From Nannochloropsis salina CCMP1776 (lineage: Eukaryota > Sar > Eustigmatophyceae > Eustigmatales > Monodopsidaceae), in assembly GCA_004565275.1 (NCBI GenBank), contig SDOX01000021.1, forward strand, positions 606,230 through 670,229: a stretch of DNA of 64,000 bases, written 5' to 3'. Position 1 is the first letter of the stretch, and the number at the start of each line of letters is the position of its first letter. A program made the translations under genes and the position numbers. The notes below the pieces were generated by a model. The model was given only the letters and a program-made list of their open reading frames with translations, made no database searches and was not told the origin of the DNA. Below, in pieces: positions 3,168 through 38,828 of the stretch.

Positions 3168-4670
3168 TTAAATCCCGAGAAGAGATCCTAAAAACACACG
3201 TGAATTCCAGAGCGAATGGATTGCTATGGGGACAAGGAGGTTTCCTGATAACAGGTAGAGGACGGCCCACAGGTATCCTAGGGTCGTCAGGGGGATCATC
3301 CCACTCATACTCATGTGGTGCGCGGCGAAAATGACCGCACTGACAAGCGTGGCAACGTCGGCAGGGTAGAAGAGGTACAATGCCGGAAGGAGAAAGCCAC
3401 GGTACAGGACTTCCTCCCACCACGGGGCAGATACACAGGGTGCGAGGGAGCCCACCAGCATAGCAACGACATCGTTCCCCTCCGGGTTGATCATCTGCGT
3501 CACGACCGAGTCCACTTCGAAGGCCGAGGCCGGCAACACCACCTGGTTGACTGTGTCGGCGACGTGAAACGCCAGCGAAGACACGTAGTATCCGCCAATC
3601 GCCCACCACAGCCAGTACGTGTTCCAGCTCGACTTCATCCATACGCTCTTCTTCCCGAAAAAAGGCTTGTCTCCGCCCTCTCCCGCCTGAGTCTTGAGGA
3701 TGCCCACGCCGAGGAGGACCCAAACCAGGTGACCGGCCAGCACCTGCACCGCGCGACCCAGCGCCACGTTCAGCTCGGACAGACCAAAGACGTCCTCTAC
3801 CCATTTGGATGCCGAGCCTGAAGTCAGGTAGGCGACCATGAGAAGAAAGAGGATGCGCCATACCTTTCCCCGCCCCCTTTTGGGGGGGTTGAAGGGCAGG
3901 GGTCGAGCTCCGAACACCACCGGCTTCAACGGAAGCCCTCGGGCGCGCCGAAAGTAGGCCGCAGCTCCGAGGACCAGAAGACCTGCGAGTGAATCCATGC
4001 CTATGGATTGGAAAAGACCGTGGGTGTTCGGCACCAGCTGAAATGGAAACGGCATGGCTACCTTGGACAGCACGAGCATGTGAAAGAAATATAGTGCCAC
4101 CATGACGAGCACCTGGATGAGTGGATGCAGAGTCACAACCCACGTGGGTATCCATGCCGGGGCTCCCCGGGGTCGTTCTCTGTAGGAGGGAAGTTCGCTT
4201 GCGCTCCAGCTCTCTTCCCCCTCATCCATGGGAGACGCGGCAGCCGAGCTTTGCAATGGGTGGACACGCGATAAGCATCGCTGCTGTCTTCTTCTACGGG
4301 CTATAAAAGACCCGGTAACTGCCAAATACGACAAAGTCCGACAAGCGACTTGCGCCTGGTTTCCGACATGATGTCTAACTTCGTGAGAGCCCTGCGGACT
4401 TAGAAGCGGAGGCAGCACATGATTCATATGGCCACTAAACTTTGAAACGCTTGGAGATGGGATATAAAATGTCTGTGGCAGTAAACTCGGCCCTCTGGCG
4501 TTGCGTTGCAAGCCTGCAGGCGGTAGAGTGGGATAGCCAGCGCGCGGGAGGGGGTTGAAAGAGCTGAAGGCCACAGCGAGGGGCCAAGTGCATGAAGACA
4601 CGGTGAAGGCGACCAGGACTTTAGGCCCGAACCAGCCGCGACCACACTTCCTTTTTTTTAACAGAAGCAT
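3168..4670 (-). CDS. CPBP-family (CAAX-type) intramembrane protease, probably plastid-targeted
   Basis: One exon of 500 residues. The N-terminus is a short basic stretch, a hydrophobic signal and an AVAFSSF site, the bipartite plastid-targeting pattern of secondary red plastids. About 110 low-complexity residues then precede several hydrophobic helices. The hallmark CPBP motifs come near the C-terminus: EEVLYRG (the EExxxR motif), a paired-His motif (FAAHH) and HSLWN. In the family the Glu and His residues form a metal or catalytic site inside the membrane. Some members are Rce1 prenyl-protein proteases; many plastid members have no known substrate, so the substrate cannot be assigned here. 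The gene is head to head with gatC across 491 bases. Confidence 0.82.
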   Translation of the reverse strand: MLLLKKRKCGRGWFGPKVLVAFTVSSCTWPLAVAFSSFNPLPRAGYPTLPPAGLQRNARGPSLLPQTFYIPSPSVSKFSGHMNHVLPPLLSPQGSHEVRHHVGNQAQVACRTLSYLAVTGSFIARRRRQQRCLSRVHPLQSSAAASPMDEGEESWSASELPSYRERPRGAPAWIPTWVVTLHPLIQVLVMVALYFFHMLVLSKVAMPFPFQLVPNTHGLFQSIGMDSLAGLLVLGAAAYFRRARGLPLKPVVFGARPLPFNPPKRGRGKVWRILFLLMVAYLTSGSASKWVEDVFGLSELNVALGRAVQVLAGHLVWVLLGVGILKTQAGEGGDKPFFGKKSVWMKSSWNTYWLWWAIGGYYVSSLAFHVADTVNQVVLPASAFEVDSVVTQMINPEGNDVVAMLVGSLAPCVSAPWWEEVLYRGFLLPALYLFYPADVATLVSAVIFAAHHMSMSGMIPLTTLGYLWAVLYLLSGNLLVPIAIHSLWNSRVFLGSLLGI

Positions 4671-5161
4671 GCTTCCCTGTGATGATTAATGCGTAGATTA
4701 GTGTCATCCACGCGCGTTGTTTGACCCTGGCCTGTCTTAGCAATTCAAGCGCTCAAGCAGACTTGGCGAGGGCGAGGCCAGGCGACGGGAAACGACGTGC
4801 GGCGCCTCCTCGTCCTCACACTTTCAAAAGACGTACAACACCGGCGCGAAGAACCAAAAGTCGAATGTCAAAAATATTTATCTTACTGTTTCGTGACGGA
4901 ACATGCGAGTGGTAGGCTGTGTACCGTAGGCTGCCCGGACGCCGACATCTCCCCACCCTCACCATTTCCTCGATCTGCTCACAGGCAGGACTAGAGCCAC
5001 CTTGCCATGAGCTTGGGCCCTCGCGCCAGGGGGATCCTTATGCGCATCAAGAGCAAGGATAAAATCTCGCAATCGAGGTGCGTGTACTTGATGTATCGAT
5101 GAATTGATCTTGAGGCGCTCGCACGCTCACGTTTTGCCTGGTGTCCCGAAAACTTTCTCAC
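4671..5161. promoter_or_regulatory. Shared upstream region of CPBP protease and gatC
   Basis: 491 bases separate two divergent start codons, so the stretch must hold both promoters. I see no gene and no clear TATA box. Confidence 0.4.
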
Positions 5162-10125: not shown

Positions 10126-13100
10126 TTACGACGCGTCGCCTACAACTTTCAAGCGGCCACCAAAATCACGCAAACGGCTGCTATCTTTTTCTTCGAAAGA
10201 GTTGTCGTTAGCCAGACGATTTGCAATTTCGATGCCATCCTGACGGACTTTGGCCAGTTTTTCCAAGTCTCGGGCGCACAGTGCTTCCAATAATGCGTTA
10301 TAAGAAATAAGACAAGACTTTGGATCTGGAAAGAGATAAAGTCCGAGAACTTCACAATCGAACTCTTTAAAGTCTACATGAAATTCAGCCGCTGTTTCCT
10401 TGACCCCTTTGTAAAATTGTTCGCGCGTAATACGGCCACGACGGACATTACTTTGCTTCGAATAAGGTGACGTATCAAATGCTGTGTAAATTTTGCAGAG
10501 AATTCGCTTGCGACCCAGGCGGCTAAAGCAACTGCAAAAACTCTGTACGGCATTTTCCAACTGTTGCTGCTGGTTTCCGTCACAATGTTGGATAGATCTT
10601 GTAAGATCCTGCAGATACTTCTTGATTGTAGGAGCTTGACCTTTGCGGGAAAACGACACCTCTTTTCCAGCACATGGATCCCGACAGGTTTTGAATGAGC
10701 TACTCAGGGATGACAAAGGAATATCTACGGATTCTATAGTATAGATGGCGTCACACAGGTCCATGTAATGAAGTTTTCCGGTCCCACACAAATCGTACTG
10801 CAGGAATAAAGTCGATGCAGCACTTTCAGTCAGCAAAGGAGTCAACCCATGTACTTTAAGTGCATGAAACCATTGTTCCATGTCCAATTGGCCACAACCT
10901 CTGACATCCAATTGCCGCAATGTCTTGCGCAGGAAGGCGCGATGGCTTTCCCCATGCATGAAAGCACCTGTCAAAGCTTTATAGAGGCGTTCTTCGATGC
11001 TGAGCTGATTTGCACCCACAGCCTCTTTCGCCTGCTCCAAAACAGACTTTGGTGCACATATAGATAAAGCATCAACATAGTCATCGTACCAAATGCCGCT
11101 TTTTGATCCGCTCTCATCATTTTCCACACCCGCCCCGCTAGCTACCATAGGGCCTACAAATGCAGTAGCGACTTCAAATGAGACCAGTAATGCGACCAGT
11201 TCTTGATGGGTGATAGGCGTGGCGTGTGCTTGGGTTTCAAGCTCGCGGATCAATTTGGCGAATTCTACGTGCATCAATGCCCCAACATTTCCCTCGTCGT
11301 ACGCACGGAATAAGGCGCGGATCGGAATTCCAGCACCGATAAAGGTTTCTGCCTGCTTTACTAGACATATCCGCACAGCCAAAGGAACTGCAAAGTAGAC
11401 CTGCGAAGTGACCATAGCATAGGGAAGGATATCCCCTTCTTCGCCGTTGCCGCCCGAGGCAAGAATCATTCCAATGTCTTCTAAAATCTTTCTAGTATAT
11501 TCATCGTATCCGACCGTTTTCAAGGTAAATAGGCGCGCTCCAGTTGCGGGGACTTCAAATGTTACTGGTGGCGCGGTCAACAGAAAGTCCTCAGGACGGA
11601 GAAAGCGCGAGTGACTTCCACCAAGACCCTCCCACGACTTTCCGGTATTACCTGTAGCTTTGTTTGAAATGTATTTTTTGTACTTCCCTCGGGCCAAGAA
11701 AAGCCCTCCATCAACTCCAGAGTTGGGAATCGAAGGCTCAAAAATGCTGACCGTGGAATCGAACTCAAAAAAATTTAAGATTAGATTTCTGGAATGGTCC
11801 TCTTCCAACCGCTGTGCCCCGGTGCTATTGTTGTCCTTGCTGGCCGTCTTTCCCGTAGGGATTGCACGCATCAAGTGCACTAAAAATCGTAAAACTTTAG
11901 CCTCGTGCTGATTTTTCGCTTGCCGCTTATTCTTGCCTTCCAATATTCCCGGTTCCAGTTTGAGACCTAAAGCATAAGCATCGTCATCAGTGCCAAATCC
12001 GTTAGGCGGCGTTATGATAACTTTCGAGGTGGGATCCGCGGACTCGCTCTGTGCGATGTGCAAGGGCTTTTGTTCGATACCTTTCGATGCATACCATTCG
12101 GCAGTACTTGTGTCGCAGGAAAGCAATAGTATACGGCGCCCATAGACTTTAATATATCCTCCGCATTGTAGATCCTCGTATTGATACAGGCGGTCAGAAT
12201 CCTTGAGGACACATTGTCGGCTCAAAAAAGTTGGAAAATGATGCCGACCAGGTTCAATGGTCTCTTTGATCAATATGGTTTGGTCACTAACGTAAAAATA
12301 GAGAACACATTGGTGACGACCGCCGAGTTGGTTCTCGTCTTCGTACGCGCAGTAAAAGCGCAATACTTTGGTGTCACGAAGCTGGTAAGGGGGGAGCTTC
12401 AGAAGGTCCGAGGTATTACTTTGACTGGGTTGCGGCCTGATCTCATCCTGTTGCCGCTCTTGCACGTCTTTGCGACGTACTAAGAGAGGTTGTTCCATGC
12501 GAAGTCTTTGCTCACGATGACCATCATCAGGACACTCCATGGCCGGTCCAAATTCCACGCCAAATGTGCTTTTATACCACGCTCGAGTATGAGCATCCGC
12601 ATCTATTATAACTAGAGTTCGATTGTAAAAGACAACGCTGGCCCCAACTGCAATATCAGCAGGAGAGAAGAACTGTTCTTCTTGGTGATGGTTGTCCCCC
12701 TGCTCCTTAATGGGCTTAGGCACTTTCTGCTTTCGCATGAATGTGCCCTGAGGTATACCCGAATTCGTCTCCTTAGGTTCAATGACGGAAAACATACCTA
12801 AAATGCAAAATGAATGAAAATTGGTTTGGGGTGTGAAGATGACATAGGAGCGTATTTTGATTGCAAGTATGTATACTTCTATTGAAAACTTACGTGTTAA
12901 GTCATTTTTATGAGAGATTTTTATCGAATATCGAAATTTAGCATGCACTTACCCGAAGAAATGAAGTAATGCAGTATAAAGCGCCGGATACGCATGGTGA
13001 CCCTGTTTTCATCTCCACCTTCGAAGACTGGCTCCTTATAATAAGCATAATATCTCAACACTTCCTGGTCATTTTTTTGCAACCAAGGAGGCAAATAGCT

Positions 13101-15287: not shown

Positions 15288-16997
15288 TTACTCGTCCCCC
15301 TGCAAAAGAATGTCGATGAAACCCACGCGGGAGCGCACGAGATGGTCGTAACCCCATGACACTTGCACCGACTCGATCTGAAAGCTATCGTCCAGGAACG
15401 GAAGGATGTCGTTCTCTCTCCCGCCTCCCACCACGTATCCAATCAATGTAAACTTTCCATCCAAGGACTTAGCCGTTTCCACACATCGGGCGTCGCGCTG
15501 CAACCAGAAGAACTCGCTGTTAGCGCCGTTGCCGTCTTGCTCAGGATGCAACAGCCCGATCGCCCGCGGCGTCCGATAAGACAGCAGCGGCGGCGCCCGA
15601 GTAAAGAGGCCCGTGTTCCTTGCTTGGCCATAGAATGGACGGTTGCCCTCTGGTTCTGCGCGCATCACCTCCAACGGCACCCGCCTCTGCTTTCCCGTAA
15701 TGGGGTCGACGAAACCCGTCTTATAGCGCCCACCCACCACCAGCTCCACCTCCTGGTCATCCTTATTTCCGCTTCGAACTTTCTCTGTGACGAGAGGCAA
15801 GCGATTGTAAAAACCTCGCTGACACAAGTCGATGAAATTTCCGGAAGATATAGGTGCATTGAAACCATCCACGATCACTGTCATGTTCGCTGTTTTTAAA
15901 ACGCCATTTTCCTCCTTATTCCCGTTGCTACCCTCTTTATCCTTGCCCAACTCCTTCAGGAAAAAGATAACCTCCGCTCGTCCGAAGAGCCTTGGGAGAT
16001 TGAAATAGTCGTCCTCGCGACGGTCGTCATTCTTCGGCGGGGAGAAAGGGAACTTCGCAACCATAAGCTCCCCTAGATGCCCGAGATGGAGCAAGGACTC
16101 TTCTTGATATCGGAGCGTGTCCGCTACGCTTTCGTGTTGAGTAGCGTTCTCCAGATTCGAGATTGCCAAATCCAAGAGGAGGAGCTCATTCGCGAAGCGG
16201 GCCCGCCGCCTCGCTTGGGACTCAGCCGTCGTGTTCGGGCGGATCGTCAGCGCGTAGGGGAACGCATCTTTTTCTCGGTTGTACGTCGCCCGGACGTTCT
16301 CTGCCAAACCCTTTATTTTGGACCACCGGAATGTGGATATGTCTCCTGGTACTCCATTGTCTTCGGCTGCTGTCGTATTGAGCATGCCTGGCTCGGAGGT
16401 GGCTGCAGTGACAAAGCTGAGGTCCGCGATTACCTGACCGGCTTCATTGCAGAGCCCTGAGCCCTGTAGCACATTCAATCCGCGAAGTTCATTTATCCGA
16501 CTGAGTGCCTGGCCCATTCCTTTAATGGCTTGGTTGTTCAATGGCAAAGATTCCACTAGGACCGACTCCGGGAGGACTCCATCCAACAGACCTCCCTTGG
16601 TTACCCATGGAAATTCTTCCAAGGCCGCCTGTGCCCTTCCTCCCCCGCCTGCTGCTGGGATACCTACATTGATAAGTGCAGGGATTAAAGTGGAAGCTGC
16701 AGCCACAGCTCCACGCCGGCTTATCGTATTCCAAGCACGCGCGGGACGGCCTGACGGAGGCGTGTCTGATGGCGTCTCGGCTGGGATCGAGGATGATTTC
16801 GGGTACTCCATCGGGCAGGCGTCCTCCGACGGGGTAGACCGGGATGAAAACGTTCGCCATATCTGTCCTCTTGCGACAGGAGTATGGAAGGGGTGCAAGG
16901 GGGTCTGAAACCAGGCAAACGACAGGGGGAGAGCAAATGTCAGGAGGTAGGTAGGCCAGATGGCAGGACGGCCACGCATTCTGCCTTTCACGAGCAT
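15288..16997 (-). CDS. Thylakoid lumen cyclophilin, CYP38/TLP40-like
   Basis: One exon of 569 residues. The N-terminus has a hydrophobic signal ending SFAWF (bipartite plastid targeting). Later comes a twin-arginine-type lumen signal (SRRGAVAAAST, ending AQA). The helical N-terminal domain of CYP38 follows, with KGMGQALSRINELRG, and then a C-terminal cyclophilin-like domain from about residue 370 (VDGFNAPISSGNFIDLCQRGFYN through KFTLIGYVVGG). In plants CYP38 sits in the thylakoid lumen and is needed to assemble and repair photosystem II. Its prolyl isomerase site is degenerate there, and the key Arg and Phe of active cyclophilins are not obvious here either. The protein is longer than plant CYP38 (about 440) because of the leader and loops. 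Confidence 0.87.
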   Translation of the reverse strand: MLVKGRMRGRPAIWPTYLLTFALPLSFAWFQTPLHPFHTPVARGQIWRTFSSRSTPSEDACPMEYPKSSSIPAETPSDTPPSGRPARAWNTISRRGAVAAASTLIPALINVGIPAAGGGGRAQAALEEFPWVTKGGLLDGVLPESVLVESLPLNNQAIKGMGQALSRINELRGLNVLQGSGLCNEAGQVIADLSFVTAATSEPGMLNTTAAEDNGVPGDISTFRWSKIKGLAENVRATYNREKDAFPYALTIRPNTTAESQARRRARFANELLLLDLAISNLENATQHESVADTLRYQEESLLHLGHLGELMVAKFPFSPPKNDDRREDDYFNLPRLFGRAEVIFFLKELGKDKEGSNGNKEENGVLKTANMTVIVDGFNAPISSGNFIDLCQRGFYNRLPLVTEKVRSGNKDDQEVELVVGGRYKTGFVDPITGKQRRVPLEVMRAEPEGNRPFYGQARNTGLFTRAPPLLSYRTPRAIGLLHPEQDGNGANSEFFWLQRDARCVETAKSLDGKFTLIGYVVGGGRENDILPFLDDSFQIESVQVSWGYDHLVRSRVGFIDILLQGDE

Positions 16998-17369
16998 GCC
17001 GGATGATTTGTGGTAGACGATTTATGTACTCGGATGGCTGCCCATGTGTAGTCTATACTGGCCCCTGTGCGCGTTCACGGGTGAGATGGAGGGCGAGAGA
17101 GTCAGTTGAAGGTAGCGAGGCGGATACATGTCAGATAGTACCAGACCGTCGCTCTCTCCCTTCGCCTGAACAACTTTGACCATCCTAAGTTTTTAAAAGA
17201 TAGTCGTAGAGTCCGATTAAAAAAAGGAACGGATAATTTACTCTCCATCAGCTATCACGCGATCTTCAAAACGAAAGGTGTCCTATGAACTTTTGTCGCG
17301 TGGAATTGGGATCTTTTGCCGTCGATTACCAGGAGGTTACCATGTAATTTCTTGTCGTTTTTTTCGGGG
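16998..17369. other. Upstream region of CYP38-like gene and 3' flank of the aminotransferase gene
   Basis: Both neighbours are on the minus strand. Nothing beyond untranslated and promoter sequence is evident. Confidence 0.35.
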
Positions 17370-19155: not shown

Positions 19156-22100
19156 ATGGGACAGCGTGATGCGAGATGGCGAAAGAAGTCACGGAGTCTT
19201 TTGCGAGCATTGAAATATCTCACATTGGTTGCAGTAGCACACCTCAACGTGAAAGCCTTTCAGCTTCGCTCTGTGTTGCCATCAAGTACGGTCTGTTCCC
19301 AGCACTTCGGTCAGGCACCGACGGCGATGTGGCATGAGCGCTTGCTGCATGCCCACATGCACGTGAGGCAACCATCATCGTCACTGTCCAAAGACCGACC
19401 TCAAACTGCCATGTATGCATCTTCTTTTGATTTGGAATCTCTCCTTCGACTTCCCAAAGACCCCGCTCCGTCGCCACGGCCTTCCACGTCATCAGCATCC
19501 TCTGCCCAAGACACGGTCATCGCTGCCGCCGCGTCGGCCGCTGAATGCGAAAGAGTCATAGATCGTCTTGAGCGGGGTCTTAACAAGCTGAAGATGATTC
19601 ATGGTTGGTGCATCTCCCCCGCAGACGCCGCGTTTCTGGATAAGACTCGGGAGGAACTGAAGCCGCTGGTGAACTACTTGCCAGGGCGCGATGATCAAGC
19701 CAAGATTGAGACTGCGCTGCAAGTCGCGTATCACGCCCACATGGGCCAGGTACGTCGCAGCGGTGAACCCTTTGTGCGACATCCTATTGAGGTGGCGAAG
19801 ATATTGACGGAGCTTCGCATGGATGCTGATTCGATCGCGGCGGGCCTGCTCCACGACACGGTGGAAGACACTCCTGTGTCCGTCGCAGACATCCAGGCGG
19901 TGTTTGGCGCTGCAGTCCGACGCCTGGTAGAAGGTGAGACCAAGGTGAGCAAGCTGCCAAAGCGGTTGAGCCGGGCAGGCGCCTGTGAGCAGGTGGGAGC
20001 GAGCGGAGCGGGGGGCCTGGGGGGGGCCGATGCCGCCGAGGTGGCGCCACCATTGACAGACGACCAGCTGGCGAACCTTTTGCACCTATTGATGGCCATG
20101 GCTCAGGATTTCCGTGTCCTTGTAGTCAAGTTGGCTGACAGACTTCACAACATGCGCACCCTGGGCTTCATGTCTCCGACCAAGCAGGAGAAAATCGCCC
20201 GTGAGACGTTGGTGAGTGGCCCGTCTGATTGGTGATGGCTATAAGGCAATTAGTTCCTGTTTACTTTTCGTGAATACGAAGACATGTGGATACCCGCATC
20301 TGGTCCTCATGCTCATTTCTCAATGCCTCGCAGGACGTGTACGTCCCCCTGGCCCGGAAGCTGGGAGTGTGGCGGCTGAAGACAGAACTAGAGGATCTGG
20401 CTTTCAAAACGCTGCACGCACCTGAACATGCAGCCATGACGCGGGCATTGGACACCCGTAGAGAGCTGCTAGCATCGCTGCACACGAATCGCTTCGGGAG
20501 TCGGCGGTTGAGCATGACGGCGGCTCTAACGGAAGCCTTACCACGCTTGCTCAAGTCAAGGGGGGCTCTCAAGGGGCATGACGTCACTGTCCGCCTGGAG
20601 AGCAAGCAGCCTTATCAGCTCTTTGCGCGAGATACGGCGGTAGAAGGCGCCATCGATACGCAGCCCGACTTGCTGACTTTAAAAGTGGTCGTCTCCTCTG
20701 AGCACGTCGCGGGGCCCAGCAGCTGGAGCGAAGGCGCGCCTTGTACCAGCCAAAGCCCCTCTTCTGCGTCACAACCTCGACGGAGAGATCGTCGGGACTT
20801 GAAAGCAGACCGTGCGTTGTGTATGATGGTGCTTGAGGAGATCCAGACTGAGCTCCGCTCTCCCTCCAGTCACAGTCGTGTGCGTGACTACATTTCTTTC
20901 CCTTTAGACAATGGCTACCAGGCCTTGCACGATGAGCTCCGCGTGCCCGGTTTCCCCTTTCCATTGGAGGTACACGTGAACACAGACTGGATGGAGCAGG
21001 TGGCACAATATGGGCTTCTGGCCTTATGGGACGGACCGGCGTCGGCAACCGAGGCAAGCTTGGACGCCACCTACATTGCGCAGGAGCCGGTAGCCCCACT
21101 CAAAGAGGAACATGAAACACAAGCTCCTAACCAGAGACTCCAGTCGAGCGCAGTGTCTGTGGAAAGGGCCTCGGGCAGCGCGTCGGCGGGGGATTCGGCG
21201 ACGGCCGTGCCTCTCGAGCTCGGGTGGTTACAATCGTTATCAGCACAAACGAAACGGGTAGTGCGCGACAAGCCGAGCATGACCGCTCAGCAGCTTATCG
21301 GCACTCTGCAAGAGCAACTGGCTGTGAAGCGGCTCGTCCTCACCAGCGACGGCAACGTGCTCTCGCTGGACGTGCCTCAGGGAAAGGCCGGAGTGACGGT
21401 GCGTGATGCAGCTGCGGCACAGCTATCGGGAGCTACCGCCAGCATTGCCGAGCGCAGCAGTGAGAGCTCACTGACTGGATCTTTGCAGCAGCTGGAGTTG
21501 GCAGGGGCGTCAGTGAATGGACAGCCTGTGAGCCTGTCGCGACCCTTGCGGACGGGGGATGTGGTGGACTTTGTGTACCGCGCCAAGGGTGACGGGGAGG
21601 ACTCTCGTGCGGCATGGTCGTCGGCATCGGAAAGGAAGGACAAAAAAGCCTTGTGGATCTGGCAGGCGCCTCTCTTTGTTTGGCCATGGTGCCTGATCGG
21701 GAATGCAGACAGCAGTGGTAGCAGCAGATCCTCCTCATCGCCATCAAAATCAGGGGCAGACCTGCTGTCCAACAAGGTCTGGGGAGTGTCCACGCGCTCG
21801 CGACAAAAGGGCTTTGGGCAAGTTAAGCTCAAGGACACGGAGAGCGTGTGGGACAGCGGCGAAATAATATGGTTGCGTGAGTGCGAGCTCCGTCACGGCC
21901 GCCTTAGTCTCGGAGCTTTGGCCTACGGTATGGCCCACGCGTTGGTTGTCGCACTAGGGGCTTCTGGAATGGAGTGGGGTATGGGGGACGTGGGGTTGGA
22001 CCTGACAGCGGCCGCGGCAAGCACAATATCACTCGAGGGTACTGGAGCGGAGCGTATCTGTATGGATGTGGCAACCGCCGCCTGCGCAGGTGCCGCTACA

Positions 22101-22541
22101 AACTGGCTGAGATTCGCCCCCTGGGTGGCTACGGCTTTCCCCCCTTTGTCTTCGCTGGAGTGCTTTCAAATGGTCAGCTTGGTCGGCGCAGGAGAAGTCC
22201 TTGGAGGGATCGTGCCTGAGACGGTAGCTTTCAATATGCGGTATCAGGACATGCGCCGCCGTCGGCGGGCGGGAGAGAATTTTTTGGACTTGAGCAGCGA
22301 AGAAGCATCGTTAGAAGCTGCTGCGAGAGGGCACAGTGATGATTCTGCAATGAGCGGCAGCGGCGACAGAGATGGACAGGGGGAGGGACTGCAGGTACAA
22401 CAGTGTGGTCTGGGGGGAGGGAATTCGGCGCTCTTGACTCGCACGATCTCGTTGGGTTGGTTGAAGGAGCAAGAACGGCTGCTTGGTCGCCTAGGGATGG
22501 TGACTACAGCTGGTCTAGCGCTTCTTGGCGCACTTGGATAG
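19156..22541 (+). CDS. Plastid RelA/SpoT homologue with C-terminal LHC-like membrane domain
   Basis: Two exons in phase: 19156-20211 and 20334-22541, giving 1087 residues. The leader has a hydrophobic stretch and VKAFQLRS, a plastid bipartite signal. The HD (ppGpp hydrolase) domain at about 185-320 keeps RRSGEPFVRHP and HDTVED (H233, D234, E237, D238). The synthetase region keeps RDYISFPLDNGYQALH (N545-Q548) but has changes at usual positions (EVHVNT for EVQIRT, LALW for AAHW), so synthesis may be weak. A TGS domain lies at about 685-770. From about 859 it resembles a three-helix light-harvesting protein: WLRECELRHGRLSLGALAYG (E870, H873, R875 matching ExxHxR), a middle helix with E973, and KEQERLLGRLGM (E1066, R1071; the usual Asn is Leu). 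All of this is in one uninterrupted exon. Family knowledge: RSH enzymes set plastid (p)ppGpp. The fusion is inferred to tether the enzyme to thylakoids. Confidence 0.85.
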
Positions 22542-23937: not shown

Positions 23938-26014
23938 ATGGCCATCCCCGCGAGTGCTCGGATCCTTACTGTGGTCGTGGGCGCTGCGCTATTTCTCTGC
24001 TGCAGGGCAGTGGATGTGCCCTTCGCAACATGCTCCACGACCGACGCACTGGGTACGTTTTGCAGCATTGAGAGTGACACATTACACTACAAGTCGCAGA
24101 GAAAGACACCTTATTTATTCCCTTCGGTGCGAGATATCAAACTTGTACTGGCTAAGCTACCGTCGTGTCCGGCAGTCATGCTCCATGCTGTCAGCGAACA
24201 GGAGCATGTCGAGCAAAAATATGATTGAATTTCTTACACCTCGTAAAATTTTCCCCCTTCCAATCTTACAGGAGTCAGTAAAGTGGTTATGTCCGAATGG
24301 CCTCTGCATCCAGGACATCCCGTGACCCTCTCGGTCGCCTTCAGCCCCCTGCAAGACATTGTGTTGGGAACCCAACTGACGGCCAAGGTTTTCATTCAAA
24401 ACATGCAGGTAGGCATGCTTTAAAGATTCTCGCTTGGAGGTCCCACCCCGTAATCCAACAGGAGAAGTCCGACTTGGCAAGGTCAGACCTTTCTCACCCA
24501 CAGTCAAAATTCGGATCTTGTGTCTTGGAACGATCCATCTCTTCTCGTCCCCAACAGGTTTTTGAGCACAGCGTGGACATGTGCAGCGAAACTAGCTTGA
24601 CCTGCCCCTTGAAGGCAGGCGAGGACATGCAAGTGTCTGCCTCCCAGACCCTGCCGGAGGGCATCCCTCCTGTAAGTGGGCTCAAGGTAGTCGTGCAGGC
24701 GACTGACGATACCGGCGTCATCAGCTGCATCGAGGTGGAGCTCGAGCTGGCCGTGGGCGAGTACTCGCTGGATCACCTTTCCCGCCTGTCGGCCATTGAC
24801 TCTGCCCTGGTGACAGATATTCTGATGGCTGGAACCACATGGACCCCTCACTTTTCCCCCCGATTCGCCGGCGCGACACTCAAGCAGGCGCAGGGCCTCA
24901 TGGGCACCTGGCTGCGCGGGCATCCGCTCCACATGACCTTAAAGTTAAAAGAAATAGTGATGGGACCGGCGGCGCTGAACGGGGAGAACGTGACTATTCC
25001 CGAAGTCTTCGACGCTCGAGAGGCTTGGCCGGAATGTGCGGAGCTGATTGGCAGGGTCAAGGACCAGAGCGCCTGCGGTTCCTGTTGGGCCTTCGCAAGC
25101 TCCGCGGCCTTCGAGGATAGAATGTGTATTGCACACGGCTCAAAAGATCTGCTCTCACCGACAGACACACTGGCTTGCTGTACGGGCATGGCGTGCGGCT
25201 TTTCCCAAGGCTGCAATGGGGGCCAGCCCGCGGGGGCCTGGTCCTTTTTTGCCTCCCAGGGCGTCGTCTCGGGCGGGCTCTTTGAGGAGGTAGGCACCGG
25301 TACAACCTGCATGCCGTACCCCTTTTTGACCTGTGCTCACCACGTGGAACCGACGGAGGAATTGCCAGCCTGCCCAGCAGAGGATTTCGAGACCCCGCGT
25401 TGCCGTCACACTTGTTCAGAGGAATTGTACGAGGAGAATTACAGCGCCGACAAGCGCATGGCGAAGCACGGGTACTCGGTGAGCGCTAACGTGGAAGAGA
25501 TTCAGAAGGAGATAATGGAGAGCGGGCCTGTGTCCGCAGCCTTCACCGTCTACCAGGACTTTCTCACCTACAGCGGGGAGGGCGTCTATCAACACGTGAC
25601 GGGGGCTCCGCTTGGGGGGCATGCTGTCAAGTAAGTTCAAGGCTCTGAGCCCGGCGTATGCTTGATGACCAAAGGTTGATGGACTCAAAAGACCGAATGG
25701 AGAAGACTTCTAACCAAGGTATTTCTCTTTTCTGTCTGGCACAGGTTGATCGGTTGGGGGTCCGATAACGGAACGCCTTACTGGCTCGTCGTGAACTCGT
25801 GGAACAAGGTACGTGAAGACATGGATACATTCCTAACCCTAATCGTTTCTTGCAGCCTTTCATCGATTCCAGCGTTGTTTGTCGATTTTTTCCTCTTACG
25901 CTTATTTCTTACCGCGGATGACCTTAGGCATGGGGGGACGAGGGCCTTTTCCGTATCATCCGCGGTCAAGACGAATGTGGCTTTGAATCCGATATCACTG
26001 CGGGCAGTGTGTAG
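23938..26014 (+). CDS. Secreted ML-domain / cathepsin B-like fusion protease
   Basis: Five exons in phase: 23938-24052, 24272-24408, 24558-25630, 25745-25808 and 25928-26014, giving 491 residues. A signal peptide (about residues 1-24) is followed by an ML (NPC2-like lipid-recognition) domain at about 28-145, with its conserved Cys and pattern TCPLKAG, ATDDTGVISCIEVEL. Next comes a C1 propeptide (LMAGTTWTPHFSPRF) and a mature cathepsin B domain. Catalytic residues are C260 (SACGSCWAF), H439 (GGHAVKLIGWG) and N459 (VVNSWN). The GCNGGQPAGAW block and a CAHHV loop (H345, H346) match the cathepsin B occluding loop, which gives the family its dipeptidyl-carboxypeptidase activity. It should act in a vacuole, lysosome or outside the cell. 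Whether the ML domain is cleaved off with the propeptide or stays attached is unknown. Confidence 0.9.
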
Positions 26015-33893: not shown

Positions 33894-34637
33894 GGTGTTC
33901 CGCGCGCTGGAGGAATATGATCCGAACGAGGGATTTGGCGACCAAAAGGCGCTCCGCTATAAATATGCCTGCGTCATGCATGCATAATGAGAAACATAAA
34001 AATTAAGATTTCCACCTTGTGAGTGTGGCGTGCTTCGAGCGCACGCATTGTTTTGGTGCTGCCCCCCCCTCCTGGCTTCGGCGACTCCCAGGCGCGAGGG
34101 GCGGGAGGAGGGGACCGAGAAAAAGCGCTTCAATAAAGATGGCGTGGCACTAATGCTCCATCCTGGCTCAAACCAGCCGTGTCTACTATATGCTAACGCG
34201 CAAAGGGAAATTTGTGCACATACGTGGTGAAGCAATGAATTAAGGCTTCGCGGAAAAGAGTTCCTTTTGGGAGCGCGGGGGGGCCGACGTCAAGGAGACT
34301 CCCAGAGTTAGGTTTCGTTGCACTCAGTCGGCGTATGGCACGATGCAAACCACCAGATAGAAAGCGCGTCACTGCAAAGTATCACCAGTAACTCATGTAC
34401 CTACCGAATACCGCTCTGGATACCTTTCGAACCTTCACAGAACCACAGGTCGACAAGCCAGGGGTGCTGGTTCCAAGGCATAACGGAGACGTCAGAAAAG
34501 CTGTCCTCCTGAAAAGTGGTTCGCCTTTGCTCGAATTTTGACGCTGTGGATTCTTTGGCATGCTCTTCGTCTTCACGTTATTGAACGAGGCGCGCATCTT
34601 CCTGGAGGGTCTCCTCTAAGTCTCGGGATTCACCATC
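33894..34637. promoter_or_regulatory. Shared upstream region of SMC5 and sterol glucosyltransferase genes
   Basis: 744 bases between divergent starts. Contains no supported gene; short C-tracts and G-tracts occur near 34060 and 34280. Confidence 0.35.
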
Positions 34638-37600
34638 ATGATGTCATCCTGCTCCCCCTCGCCCCCGTCACCCGAGGAAGACGAGCTTGCGCCGCCTGCC
34701 ACTGAGGAGTCGCGCACAGCATTGCCTCTAACAATGTGCCCCCCCGCCCCCACTATCTATCGCAATATTGGCGTGGAGGAAAGTCCTTCGAGACGGGATC
34801 GTAGTGGAAGCACCGCCAGTTCCAAAGGGGAGGGTCTGGGCATCACAGAAGGCGCCCAGCCACGAGCCGATGCACCACTGACTCCGACGCCGCAGAGACC
34901 TGAGCTACCGCTTTCATCGGTTGCACCTGCGTCTCCAGTAGGGAGTGCCGCGGGTGGGACGGGATCTGCGGACAAGGAGGACGCCCCAAGCTTGACCCGG
35001 ACCGCGGCAGGCTGCCAGGACCCCGGGTTAACGCCTGTGGGCCCTGACGAGGGCGACGGCGGCGTCCTGAGTGACGGAAACGCCTGCCGTCCTTCCAGGG
35101 GGCAAAGCGCTGAGGGACAGGACGATGGCCTGGAGACGTACTTGGCTCTGAGCGAGGAGGGGAGTAGCGGGAGTCGGGAAGACGAGGAGGACGATTTCGT
35201 GCGCGTGGAGCCTGAGATGCATCGAGGCCACGTGGAGGTGCGTGTGTTGAAGGAGGGGTGGTTGCAGAAGCAGTGCTTACGAGTGGTGGACGGTCGGCCT
35301 TCGATGTGGCGGCATTTCGCATTCTGGAAACAGCGGTACTTCGTCCTGGGATCGGACGGGGTGCTCCGGTACTACAAGGACGCAGAGCGGCAGCACTTTC
35401 GGCGGGCTATCCCGCTGGCGGGCATGGAGGTGACGGCTCACTTCTATGCACCAGCGGATCCCGGGGAGGGGGGGGAGACGGCCGCCCTGTGTGCGTGGGA
35501 AGGGGAGGGAACGTCTCTGTCAGTGCTGGCGGCGGCCGTTGGGTCCGCGGAGGGCGAGAAGGGAGGCAAGTGTCTGATCATACGTCCCAAGCAAGTACCG
35601 TTCCCGTCGCGGCGACGTGCGAGCTCGACAGGCGGGCAAACGGAGGGGGCAAGCGTGGAGGAGGAAATGAAGCTGCTGGCGACCTCCAAGGCGGAGATGC
35701 AAGAGTGGTTGGGGGCGCTTCGGGGGGAGCTGGAGGCGACGGAGCGACAGGGCCAGACACTCTTTAACACGGCCTGGAGCTTGCTTCGCTCCTATATCGA
35801 TCGTCCGCAGGGGGAGGCGAGGACCCCGGGCGGTGGGGAGGAGGTGGGTCTGGGAGCCCGCGGCATCCGCGAGGCCGACGTTGGTCCCCCTCCCATGGAC
35901 CTCCAGCATCGGTCCTCCTCCCTTTCCCCCTCTTCAGGACTTCCCATGTCAGGCAGTGAGAGTGCTGCCCCGATGGCCGACGTGAGCTTCGTTCCGCCCT
36001 CGGTGCCGATCCCGCGCATGAAGGTGGTGATGATGGTCGTGGGCACCAGGGGGGATGTGCAGCCCTTCGTCACACTCGGCCTTGCGCTACAGGCCCAAGG
36101 CCACCGCGTCCGCCTGGCCACGCACGCCATGTACCGACCCCTCGTCGTGGAGGAGGCGGGACTGGAGTTCTATCCCTTGGGGGGAGACCCGCTCAAGCTC
36201 TCGGCCTACATGGTCAAGACCGCCGGCCGCGTCTTCCCCTTCAAGCTCCCCGACCACCAGGAGATGACCAAGGACGTGCCCGAGCAGCGGGCCATGCTCT
36301 CGGAGATCATCCTCAGCACCTGGCCAGCCTGCACGGCCCCCGACCCAGAGGACCCTCTCAAACGAGGCTTCCGCGCGGACGCCATCATCAGCAATCCCCC
36401 TGTCTACGGGCACGTGCACTGCGCCGAGGCCCTGAACGTCCCGCTTCACATCATGTTCCCTCAGCCCTGGAGCCCGACGAAAGCCTTCCCTCACCCGCTC
36501 TCGGGACTGCCCTACCACGGGCACTGGTGCAAGGAGAATTATTACTCATACCTGGTGGTTGACAAGTTCCTCTGGCTCGGGATCCAGGACATTGTGAACG
36601 AGCTCCGCGTTGCTCGACTGGGCCTGCCTCCCCTGCGGTTGGGCGAGCATGGAGGGGACTTGTTGAACCGGTACCGGGTCCCCTTCGCAAAGATGTGGAG
36701 CCCCTGCCTGGTGCCCAAGCCAAAAGATTGGGGCCCTCACATCGACGTGGTCGGCCACTTCTTGGGCCCGCAGACCTCGGGGACCCCCCCGGGAGCCGAG
36801 GCCCTCCAGGCCTGGCTGGAGCCCACCGCCCCCGGACTTCCGGCGCCTCCGGCGCCCATTTTTGTCGGCTTTGGAAGCATGGTTATCCCTGACGCCCGCA
36901 GCTTGGTAGCCATGATCCTGGAAGCGGCTCATCTGACGGACACGCGCGTGGTGCTGCAGTCTTCGTGGACCGAACTCCCCTTGCCCCCCGTGGCTGTGGC
37001 CCTCCCCTCCGCTACACCCTCTACGCCCACGGTTTTCAGCATTGGTAATTGCCCCCACGACTGGCTGCTCAAGCGTTGCTGCGCCGTGATCCACCACGGG
37101 GGGGCAGGCACTGTCGCGGCCGGACTTCGCGCGGGTAAGCCCACCATGGTCTGCCCCTTCTTCGGCGACCAGTTCTTCTGGGGACAAATGGTTTTCCAAG
37201 CGCGCGTCGGTCTCCCCCCCGTACCAGTCGTAGAGCTCACCGCAGAAAAGTTGGCGACGGCTTTCAAAGATCTGCGTTCCCCTAGCCTTGTCAGCGCGGC
37301 AGAGCGGATGGCGGAGAGGTTGGGCCGGGAGGACGGCGCAAAGGAGGGCCTGAAGGCCTTCTACCGGCACCTGCCTGTAGAGGACATGGTTTGCGACGTC
37401 AGCCTCTTCACGGACACGCCCCGACTGGCCCGGGCATTCTGCACCACGTGTGGCCTCAAGCTCTCCTCTGAGGCCCATGCCGCTCTGCACTGCGCCGGGC
37501 CCCGCACGGAGAGCGGCGGGGACGGGCCTGCGCACGCGGACCACGACGTGCGCGCGTACTCAGCCATGGACTGGGCAAGCTTGTCCGGACCCAGAGATGC

Positions 37601-38828
37601 AACTGAGGGCCTGGTGCAGGGCCTGAGCTCCCTCACGCATGAGTTCCTCGGGAGCATGGCGGGCGTGGTCACAGAGCCCGTCGCGGGCGCCCACAAGACA
37701 GGCGTGCGGGGGGCAGCACAGGGGCTAGCGTCTGGTTTAGTCAATTTAGTTCGTCGGCCCATTCGTGGAGGCATAATTTTCGTCGACAAGGTCACGACCG
37801 GGGTGAGCAACCAACTCCAACTCCAGCAATCCTCGCACGGCGTGGGCATGGCTTCGTCTCTTTCTCCATCCTTCTCGTCCTTGGGCTCGCAAGGGGAAGG
37901 AAAGGGGCAGGATAATGAGGCAGGAGTATGGCAAGACAATCTGTCGATTTCCTGTGAGCTGGTGAAGGAGTTGCGCGCGGCCCACGCCCAGGCGCTACAG
38001 TGCAAGGCACTCTTCATGCGACTGAGCAAAGGCGACCCTCGATGCGTTCCCAAAGAAGGCGTGCTGAATTTGTTGGAAGAGGTACAGACAGAAGTCAGGG
38101 AGTGCGATATGTCTGATGAGAGCGGAAGATACTCCGTGTTTGGGATGTGCGGAGCGCAGGAAGAAGCGGAGGAGCGGAAAGTATTATCGAGGGCTTTGTT
38201 GGAGCGGATCGACGCTGTTGGTGCGGGCCAGATCTCTTTCCAGCAATTTTGTGTCTTTTTCAAGGCGCTTCGGCGGGGGGCTCTGATGCAACCAAGCACC
38301 CGTGAACCTGGCACCGTTTCCATCGCATCTGAAGCGACTGCTGAGAGGCGGCATGCACCGGCGGTGGCGCTGACCGAGACTCCCGAGCCTACTAAAATGG
38401 AGGGCGTGCCGGGTGAAAGCAAACCCTCGTCGGTAGCGGTAGCGATGGTCGGCGGCCCCACGGCTGAGGGTGAGAATTGCAAAAAAAGCAAACTTTTGGA
38501 CTCTCTCATCTTCGACAGCATTTTCTTGGAGGAGCGTTCAAGCGCGCCGCTGCCTCAACCGTCTTCAAATTGCCTTCGACTCTCCCTTGATTGCGATCAG
38601 GTCGAACTTGGCGAAAATTGCGAGGAGCGCTCAGGGGCAGAAAGGAAGGAGCATGACCAGGTTCCGGACGATGACGGCGGGAGCAGTGCCTCTTCCGCCT
38701 CTTCAGGGATCATGGAGGACGTCGAGATCCAGGTGGATGTGCTCCGGCGGGATAACGAGTCCTCCAAATCAGGAGACGCAGACTATCTAGGTGAAGAGGA
38801 GGACAAGGGGCCGAAGGCCTGCCCATGA
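34638..38828 (+). CDS. Sterol 3-beta-glucosyltransferase with PH domain (UGT80/ATG26-like)
   Basis: One exon of 1396 residues. About 195 acidic, low-complexity residues precede a PH domain at about 200-370 (EGWLQKQC, FAFWKQRYFVLGSDGVLRYYKD). The GT28-type N-terminal fold starts at about 460 (VVGTRGDVQPFVTLGLALQAQ), and the acceptor/UDP-glucose site has CPHDWLLKR and HHGGAGTVAAGLRAGKP at about 818, the sterol glucosyltransferase signature. Then comes a Gly- and Ala-rich amphipathic stretch (GVVTEPVAGAHKTG, RRPIRGG), which resembles the C-terminal membrane-binding segments of VPS13-type proteins, and a weak EF-hand-like motif at about 1190. The enzyme adds glucose from UDP-glucose to membrane sterols. 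Fungal ATG26 also has a PH domain before the catalytic part. The very acidic tail is unexplained. Confidence 0.9.
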   Translation: MMSSCSPSPPSPEEDELAPPATEESRTALPLTMCPPAPTIYRNIGVEESPSRRDRSGSTASSKGEGLGITEGAQPRADAPLTPTPQRPELPLSSVAPASPVGSAAGGTGSADKEDAPSLTRTAAGCQDPGLTPVGPDEGDGGVLSDGNACRPSRGQSAEGQDDGLETYLALSEEGSSGSREDEEDDFVRVEPEMHRGHVEVRVLKEGWLQKQCLRVVDGRPSMWRHFAFWKQRYFVLGSDGVLRYYKDAERQHFRRAIPLAGMEVTAHFYAPADPGEGGETAALCAWEGEGTSLSVLAAAVGSAEGEKGGKCLIIRPKQVPFPSRRRASSTGGQTEGASVEEEMKLLATSKAEMQEWLGALRGELEATERQGQTLFNTAWSLLRSYIDRPQGEARTPGGGEEVGLGARGIREADVGPPPMDLQHRSSSLSPSSGLPMSGSESAAPMADVSFVPPSVPIPRMKVVMMVVGTRGDVQPFVTLGLALQAQGHRVRLATHAMYRPLVVEEAGLEFYPLGGDPLKLSAYMVKTAGRVFPFKLPDHQEMTKDVPEQRAMLSEIILSTWPACTAPDPEDPLKRGFRADAIISNPPVYGHVHCAEALNVPLHIMFPQPWSPTKAFPHPLSGLPYHGHWCKENYYSYLVVDKFLWLGIQDIVNELRVARLGLPPLRLGEHGGDLLNRYRVPFAKMWSPCLVPKPKDWGPHIDVVGHFLGPQTSGTPPGAEALQAWLEPTAPGLPAPPAPIFVGFGSMVIPDARSLVAMILEAAHLTDTRVVLQSSWTELPLPPVAVALPSATPSTPTVFSIGNCPHDWLLKRCCAVIHHGGAGTVAAGLRAGKPTMVCPFFGDQFFWGQMVFQARVGLPPVPVVELTAEKLATAFKDLRSPSLVSAAERMAERLGREDGAKEGLKAFYRHLPVEDMVCDVSLFTDTPRLARAFCTTCGLKLSSEAHAALHCAGPRTESGGDGPAHADHDVRAYSAMDWASLSGPRDATEGLVQGLSSLTHEFLGSMAGVVTEPVAGAHKTGVRGAAQGLASGLVNLVRRPIRGGIIFVDKVTTGVSNQLQLQQSSHGVGMASSLSPSFSSLGSQGEGKGQDNEAGVWQDNLSISCELVKELRAAHAQALQCKALFMRLSKGDPRCVPKEGVLNLLEEVQTEVRECDMSDESGRYSVFGMCGAQEEAEERKVLSRALLERIDAVGAGQISFQQFCVFFKALRRGALMQPSTREPGTVSIASEATAERRHAPAVALTETPEPTKMEGVPGESKPSSVAVAMVGGPTAEGENCKKSKLLDSLIFDSIFLEERSSAPLPQPSSNCLRLSLDCDQVELGENCEERSGAERKEHDQVPDDDGGSSASSASSGIMEDVEIQVDVLRRDNESSKSGDADYLGEEEDKGPKACP

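Follow-up and report, generated by a model that had tools for sequence, protein, structure and literature searches.

A candidate plastid RSH1-type (p)ppGpp hydrolase with a degenerate, LHC-like C-terminal tail in Nannochloropsis salina

The window, i.e. the whole stretch of 64,000 nucleotides of Nannochloropsis salina CCMP1776 DNA that was analysed, encodes on its forward strand an RSH (RelA/SpoT)-type protein of 1087 amino acids. The gene has two exons, starts with an ATG at 19156 and reads without internal stop to the stop codon at 22539-22541 (Table 1). Its product carries, in this order, a targeting-type N-terminus, a (p)ppGpp hydrolase (HD) domain, a synthetase region, part of a TGS domain, a linker and a tail that resembles light-harvesting complex (LHC) proteins. 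The splice is supported by the RelA/SpoT profile TIGR00691, because the best stretch of this profile covers positions 1-138 in exon 1 and resumes at position 138 in exon 2, from where it continues onward.

Table 1. Features of the RSH-type gene, in positions of the window, with the evidence for each.
Feature	Position	Strand	Evidence
Signal-peptide-like N-terminus, hydrophobic residues 14-32, then VKA-F35	19156-19260	+	Sequence; hydropathy peak 14-32
Exon 1 (residues 1-352, with the targeting sequence and the HD domain for (p)ppGpp hydrolysis)	19156-20211	+	ORF with ATG; HD_4; TIGR00691 1-138
Intron, 122 bases, GTGAGT..GCAG	20212-20333	+	RelA/SpoT profile continuous across it
Exon 2 (from the synthetase region through TGS and linker to the LHC-like tail and the stop)	20334-22541	+	ORF
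Synthetase region, degraded (about residues 440-590), about 30 extra residues	20595-21047	+	Alignment with bacterial RSH; Pfam RelA_SpoT
TGS domain, C-terminal half (residues 742-766)	21501-21575	+	PF02824
Trp-rich hydrophobic linker stretch, residues 792-810, LWIWQAPLFVWPWCLIGNA	21651-21707	+	Hydropathy 1.02 over 19 residues
LHC-like helix 1, residues 865-894, WLRECELRHGR and hydrophobic run	21870-21959	+	PF00504 E 0.0035 (below cut-off); PDB matches
Hydrophobic helix 2, residues 962-980, Q964..G970..E973	22161-22217	+	Hydropathy 1.42; spacing
Basic stretch after helix 2, residues 983-997, MRYQDMRRRRR	22224-22268	+	6 K/R versus 1 D/E
Hydrophobic helix 3, residues 1066-1087, ERLLGRLGM, ends at stop	22473-22538	+	Hydropathy 1.61 at 1068-1086

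Hydropathy and reading of the sequence show a basic start, a hydrophobic run and then VKA-FQ, an arrangement resembling the signal plus transit pattern of secondary red plastids. A targeting motif of the ASAFAP type is described for diatoms in the text of PMC3750529. The enzyme is predicted to be located in the plastid. The first-pass annotation had called it a plastid RelA/SpoT enzyme, and this description is supported by the targeting-type N-terminus with its VKA-FQ and by the match of exon 1 to the Pfam domain HD_4 (E 1.6e-35).

The enzyme was aligned with 74 bacterial RSH proteins (80 loci were kept, 76 of them had a matching frame and 74 of these were long enough), and positions common to at least 90% of the 74 proteins were regarded as conserved. 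The hydrolase region is identical at 39 of 42 conserved positions, among them H209, H233, D234, E237, D238, D328 and N332, and has the metal and catalytic residues of an HD hydrolase. Further on, residues 351-640 retain 23 of 42 conserved positions, and the changes relative to the bacterial alignment include G440>L, R441>E, S447>Q and K543>L. The second of these depends on the alignment: phmmer pairs the same Arg with an Arg two residues upstream. G440, R441, S447 and K543 lie in the stretch with the synthetase active site. Against Pfam RelA_SpoT the synthetase region scores 22.3 bits, below the cut-off of 27. Loss of these residues is no proof of lost synthesis, because diatom RSH4 enzymes remain active with the active-site Gly replaced, as stated in the text of PMC6881373, where Gly240 of RelSeq is also discussed. 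The same text reports that hydrolase-only RSH enzymes are known. From its residues, the present enzyme is likely to hydrolyse ppGpp, and its capacity for ppGpp synthesis is doubtful. With a synthetase half that looks degraded, a feature overlooked by the first-pass annotation, the fusion would act as a hydrolase and not in both directions. Compared with Rel proteins in the PDB, the hydrolase (about 19963-20070, + strand) and synthetase (about 20712-20802, + strand) regions each contain an additional low-complexity piece of some 30 residues.

Exon 1 finds its best match in the PDB in 6s2v, a Rel protein of Thermus. Among the 80 bacterial loci listed, which were chosen by six peptide patterns, Deinococcota (as identified by title) rank 1, 2, 5, 9 and 13. 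Both observations appear to agree with the published affinity of RSH1, in that the red RSH1 clade groups with Deinococcus-Thermus Rel according to the text of PMC6881373.

Following the synthetase region, PF02824 identifies a TGS domain with 24.4 bits (cut-off 22.2) over positions 35-59 of the 60 in the profile, i.e. its C-terminal half only, and 8 of 15 bacterial conserved positions are kept in residues 641-785. The linker that follows contains a Trp-rich stretch that is possibly membrane-interfacial; if it crossed the membrane instead, the topology of the tail would flip.

The description of the tail in the first-pass annotation, as part of one uninterrupted exon in which TGS is followed by ExxHxR, by a hydrophobic helix with E973 and by a final E...GR helix, is confirmed in frame and in position. 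ELRHGR begins at residue 870 and provides the ExxHxR of helix 1 (E870, H873 and R875), QMVSLVGAGE (964-973) ends with E973, and ERLLGRLGM begins at E1066 and includes R1071. The helix 2 spacing, Q-x5-G-x2-E, is the same in two different fucoxanthin-chlorophyll proteins (FCPs). The hydropathy peaks of the tail (residues 876-894, 962-980 and 1068-1086) lie at or beside the named residues. Hydropathy alone is no proof of membrane helices, because a stretch of the soluble HD domain (residues 308-326; 20077-20133, + strand) peaks at 1.42, the very value of helix 2.

In phmmer searches of the PDB, all 40 matches of the tail up to E 10 are by name antenna proteins of LHC, FCP or ACP type (best E 0.032), and a shuffled copy of the tail has 0 matches. 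Such proteins are rare in the PDB: 628 to 664 of 177,635 distinct sequences match at E 0.001, a background taken from three LHC queries for each of which the best 60 matches were inspected. The Pfam profile Chloroa_b-bind (PF00504) gives the tail 18.3 bits (E 0.0035), below its curated cut-off of 22.3, and gives the whole of exon 2 16 bits (E 0.018). This score alone proves little, because exon 1 receives an equal 18.3 bits for Dscam_C, a match that is almost certainly false. When seven sub-pieces were searched against Pfam, the helix 1 piece matched PF00504 (E 0.022), one piece matched TGS and RelA_SpoT, and five matched nothing; the tail has no match in NCBIfam. With a profile built from five LHC sequences, the tail scores 6.2 bits, which 2 full and 4 block shuffles, out of 2000 each, also reach; for residues 766-1087 the score is 5.5 bits, and 0 of 2000 shuffles attain it. 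Aligned to the same profile by hhalign, the tail matches over 26 columns with a probability of 18% and an E of 0.0013. The similarity is confined to around 33 residues in helix 1. From helix 2 onward there are 0 PDB matches up to E 10 and no Pfam match, and equally high scores against the LHC profile are obtained by 313 and 219 of 2000 shuffles. Structure prediction from the single sequence of the tail has a pLDDT of 41, too low for a usable model. In viral_contigs, exon 2 has 4 pattern matches and the tail 3, none of them a relative.

Motifs of this kind were also counted in 100,000 shuffles, with patterns for helix 1 and for helices 2-3 that were fixed after seeing the sequence. E..HGR occurs in 0.19% of shuffles of residues 836-1087, and the longer [WFY]LR..E[LIV][KR][HN]GR in 0 of 100,000. 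The helix 2 pattern followed by E...GR..M occurs in 0.03% (full) to 0.05% (block) of shuffles of residues 901-1087.

An LHC-type identity of helix 1 is well supported by these similarities. The tail as a whole is best termed LHC-like, short of a proven LHC, because PF00504 stays under its cut-off. The earlier assignment of an LHC-like domain thus holds for helix 1 and for the order, spacing and hydropathy of the helices, and is weakened by the Pfam score (18.3 versus 22.3 bits), by the missing profile signal in helices 2-3 and by the low pLDDT. We consider descent of the tail from an LHC-type protein to be quite probable. The strongest competitor is a plain hydrophobic membrane anchor of other origin, in which the ExxHGR of helix 1 would have arisen by convergence or chance. 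The sub-threshold Pfam score, the dissimilarity of helices 2-3 to LHC profiles and the 0.19% frequency of E..HGR are in its favour, but such an anchor would be unlikely to draw nothing but antenna proteins (40 of 40 by name, against 0 for the shuffled copy) or to carry the longer helix 1 pattern absent from all shuffles, post hoc as that pattern is, and a similar fusion is in print for an ochrophyte (see below). On balance this origin is unlikely.

The loop between helices 1 and 2 is acidic (2 K/R versus 5 D/E in residues 901-957), and the whole loop between helices 2 and 3 is slightly so (9 K/R versus 11 D/E in residues 984-1056), its beginning being basic (Table 1). The basic residues 983-997, on what would be the stromal side of an LHC, together with the acidic residues 901-957 fit the expectation for a protein whose N-terminal enzyme faces the stroma.

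By position, E870, H873 and R875 correspond to E65, H68 and R70 of LHCII, and E1066 and R1071 to E180 and R185, residues with a part in pigment binding or helix pairing. The tail could therefore form both of the ion pairs that join the crossed helices. Helix 3 has ExxLxR (E1066, L1069 and R1071) in place of ExxNxR (Q instead of N in the FCPs compared), and the positions of LHCII N183 and Q197 are L1069 and L1083. The distance from E973 to E1066 is 93 residues, versus 41 in an FCP and in LHCII; an FDPLG-type motif is missing before helix 1, and the protein ends directly after helix 3. Compared to LHC and FCP antenna proteins (PF00504), the protein is alike in its helix 1 motif and in three hydrophobic stretches where the charged residues are those expected, and differs in its score below the family cut-off, in the loss of two helix 3 ligands, in the longer loop between helices 2 and 3 and in having nothing after helix 3. 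A scaffold that is kept with few pigment sites fits an anchor or a regulator. Alternatively, the tail may be a genuine antenna or a photoprotective LHC that binds pigment; the enzyme part would then be carried on an antenna complex and controlled by its light or quenching state. E870, H873, R875, E973, E1066 and R1071, at pigment-holding or helix-pairing positions of LHCII, are compatible with that; Leu at the helix 3 ligand positions, the 93-residue interval, the lack of an FDPLG-type motif and the abrupt end after helix 3 make it improbable.

The usual Rel C-terminus after TGS appears to have been replaced by the LHC-like domain. In PtRSH1 of Phaeodactylum, TGS is accompanied by helical, zinc-finger and ACT domains, and a C-terminal ACT is found in the majority of RSH1 clade members, as stated in the text of PMC6881373. 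The present protein has no Pfam match to ACT up to E 10, and a profile from 63 bacterial Rel C-termini matched nothing in residues 766-1087, with a control of 293 bits for a sequence that is itself one of the 63 training sequences. An ordinary Rel C-terminus is therefore unlikely. A decayed one, in which the helical, zinc-finger and ACT domains have eroded into the present tail, would have precedents in the retention of these domains by PtRSH1 and in the putative membrane segments proposed for the C-terminus of Arabidopsis RSH1 in the text of PMC5633626, but the same negative searches for ACT and for the 63-sequence profile make it very improbable.

The fusion of the RSH part and the tail in one reading frame is well supported. 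The tail has no separate start, because no in-frame Met occurs between residues 668 (ahead of the TGS match) and 885 (within helix 1). GC3 is 0.64-0.69 in every 100-residue block of residues 201-1000, compared to 0.43-0.50 in the two flanks in any phase. The linker offers 116 GT..AG pairs with a length of 60 bases or more, and donors of the type GTGA or GTAA are absent from it. A separate LHC gene downstream is unlikely, as the frame is unbroken, GC3 is steady and an in-frame ATG is missing from 668-885; that two adjacent genes have been read as one, with the tail belonging to another transcript or partly spliced off, is given some room by the 41 of 116 GT..AG pairs with a length divisible by three and is highly improbable given these same features, the absence of GTGA and GTAA donors and the like architecture named in print for Ectocarpus.

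That precedent is a single sentence of Avilan et al. 2019 (PMC6881373), according to which RSH1 of Ectocarpus siliculosus has a chlorophyll A-B binding domain; “chlorophyll” appears once in the main text of the paper. The first-pass annotation knew of no described RSH-LHC fusion, a point that this sentence corrects. This was the one paper on such a fusion found in the open-licence literature, and in the brown-algal LHC survey PMC3008699 the whole words RelA, SpoT, fusion and fused are all absent. Both proteins combine an RSH1-type enzyme with an LHC-type domain in an ochrophyte, the one from Ectocarpus being known by description only (PMC6881373). The kind of fusion is thus already on record, and the present gene is probably its second case. 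Long unbroken frames in the window, together with the targeting pattern, suggest an intron-poor ochrophyte genome, and the one short intron of the gene sets it apart from the intron-rich Ectocarpus. A second case beside the Ectocarpus mention, from what looks like a different genome, would make an error of the gene model less likely and point to a lineage trait. To the record the present gene adds the degraded synthetase, the lack of a detectable ACT, and a tail of three hydrophobic helices with ion-pair residues kept and helix 3 ligands lost.

Other known systems are alike in part. PtRSH1 and the red RSH1 clade share the hydrolase, synthetase and TGS regions with the present protein, but the synthetase of PtRSH1 is active and its sequence includes an ACT domain (PMC6881373, in its text on these proteins), in contrast to the degraded synthetase and the undetected ACT of the present protein. 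Arabidopsis RSH1, a hydrolase only, similarly keeps its hydrolase and has a changed synthetase active site, as stated in the text of PMC6881373; its C-terminus is ACT-bearing, whereas that of the present protein is LHC-like. A plastid membrane location has been suggested for Arabidopsis RSH1 in the text of PMC5633626. A precedent for such a tail is type II ferrochelatase, a plastid or cyanobacterial enzyme with a C-terminal hydrophobic segment of the LHC family (CAB segment) that alters activity; it is a different enzyme with one predicted helix, compared to the three hydrophobic helices here (PMC3563542, in its text on this segment). Removal of the CAB segment raised kcat in one study (PMC3563542), and other work cited there found ferrochelatase inactivated when the segment was removed together with the linker; the text of PMC3563542 reports no pigment binding for the segment.

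The reading that we favour, with a probability of roughly 0.6, is a plastid RSH1-type ppGpp hydrolase whose synthetase has decayed and whose degenerate three-helix LHC-like tail anchors it at the thylakoid. The nucleus-encoded, plastid-targeted enzyme would act as a (p)ppGpp hydrolase with a decayed synthetase half, and its LHC-like domain would insert in the thylakoid so that the enzyme faces the stroma. The crossed helix pair, and perhaps a few pigments, would be held by E870, H873 and R875 of helix 1 together with E1066 and R1071. Because the helix 3 ligands are lost, the tail would serve as a pigment-poor anchor or in regulation, and less probably as an antenna. Tethered in this way, the hydrolase would keep ppGpp low beside the membrane, the site of plastid translation and SRP-dependent insertion. 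An LHC-like tail where the usual C-terminal domains are missing suggests that the sensor may have been swapped from the ribosome to the thylakoid.

It is conceivable, though doubtful on present evidence, that a tail occupied by chlorophyll or carotenoid responds to the supply of pigment, to light or to the state of the membrane and turns the ppGpp hydrolase on or off. The bacterial stress messenger of these plastids would then be read directly by the photosynthetic membrane and not by ribosomes. That ppGpp can act near the membrane is indicated by its blocking of chloroplast SRP54-FtsY association in vitro (text of PMC12104861) and by its shifting of the ratio of PSII antenna to reaction centre in nitrogen-starved Arabidopsis (text of PMC8887892); in moss, ppGpp changes thylakoid stacking (text of PMC10107265).

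Several other genes lie in the window. Two on the reverse strand may concern the plastid: 3168-4685 encodes an Rce1-like membrane protease (PF02517) with, by eye, a signal-like N-terminus followed by AF, and is perhaps plastid-targeted, and 15288-17021 encodes a cyclophilin-type isomerase (PF00160) with a signal-like start and a twin-Arg-like SRRGAVAAAS, again by eye, perhaps of the thylakoid lumen. On the same strand, 10126-12948 encodes an EFHC-type protein with DM10 repeats and EF-hands. Proteins of this type are usually tied to cilia, and its presence bears on whether the alga has flagellate stages. On the forward strand, 24282-25634 joins in one frame an ML domain (PF02221, 6.6e-08) and a papain-type protease (PF00112, 1.3e-31), a fusion that is not known to be common. 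Also on the forward strand, the 1402-residue frame at 34620-38828 combines a PH domain with glycosyltransferase 28 and EryCIII-like domains, and its product resembles sterol glucosyltransferases.
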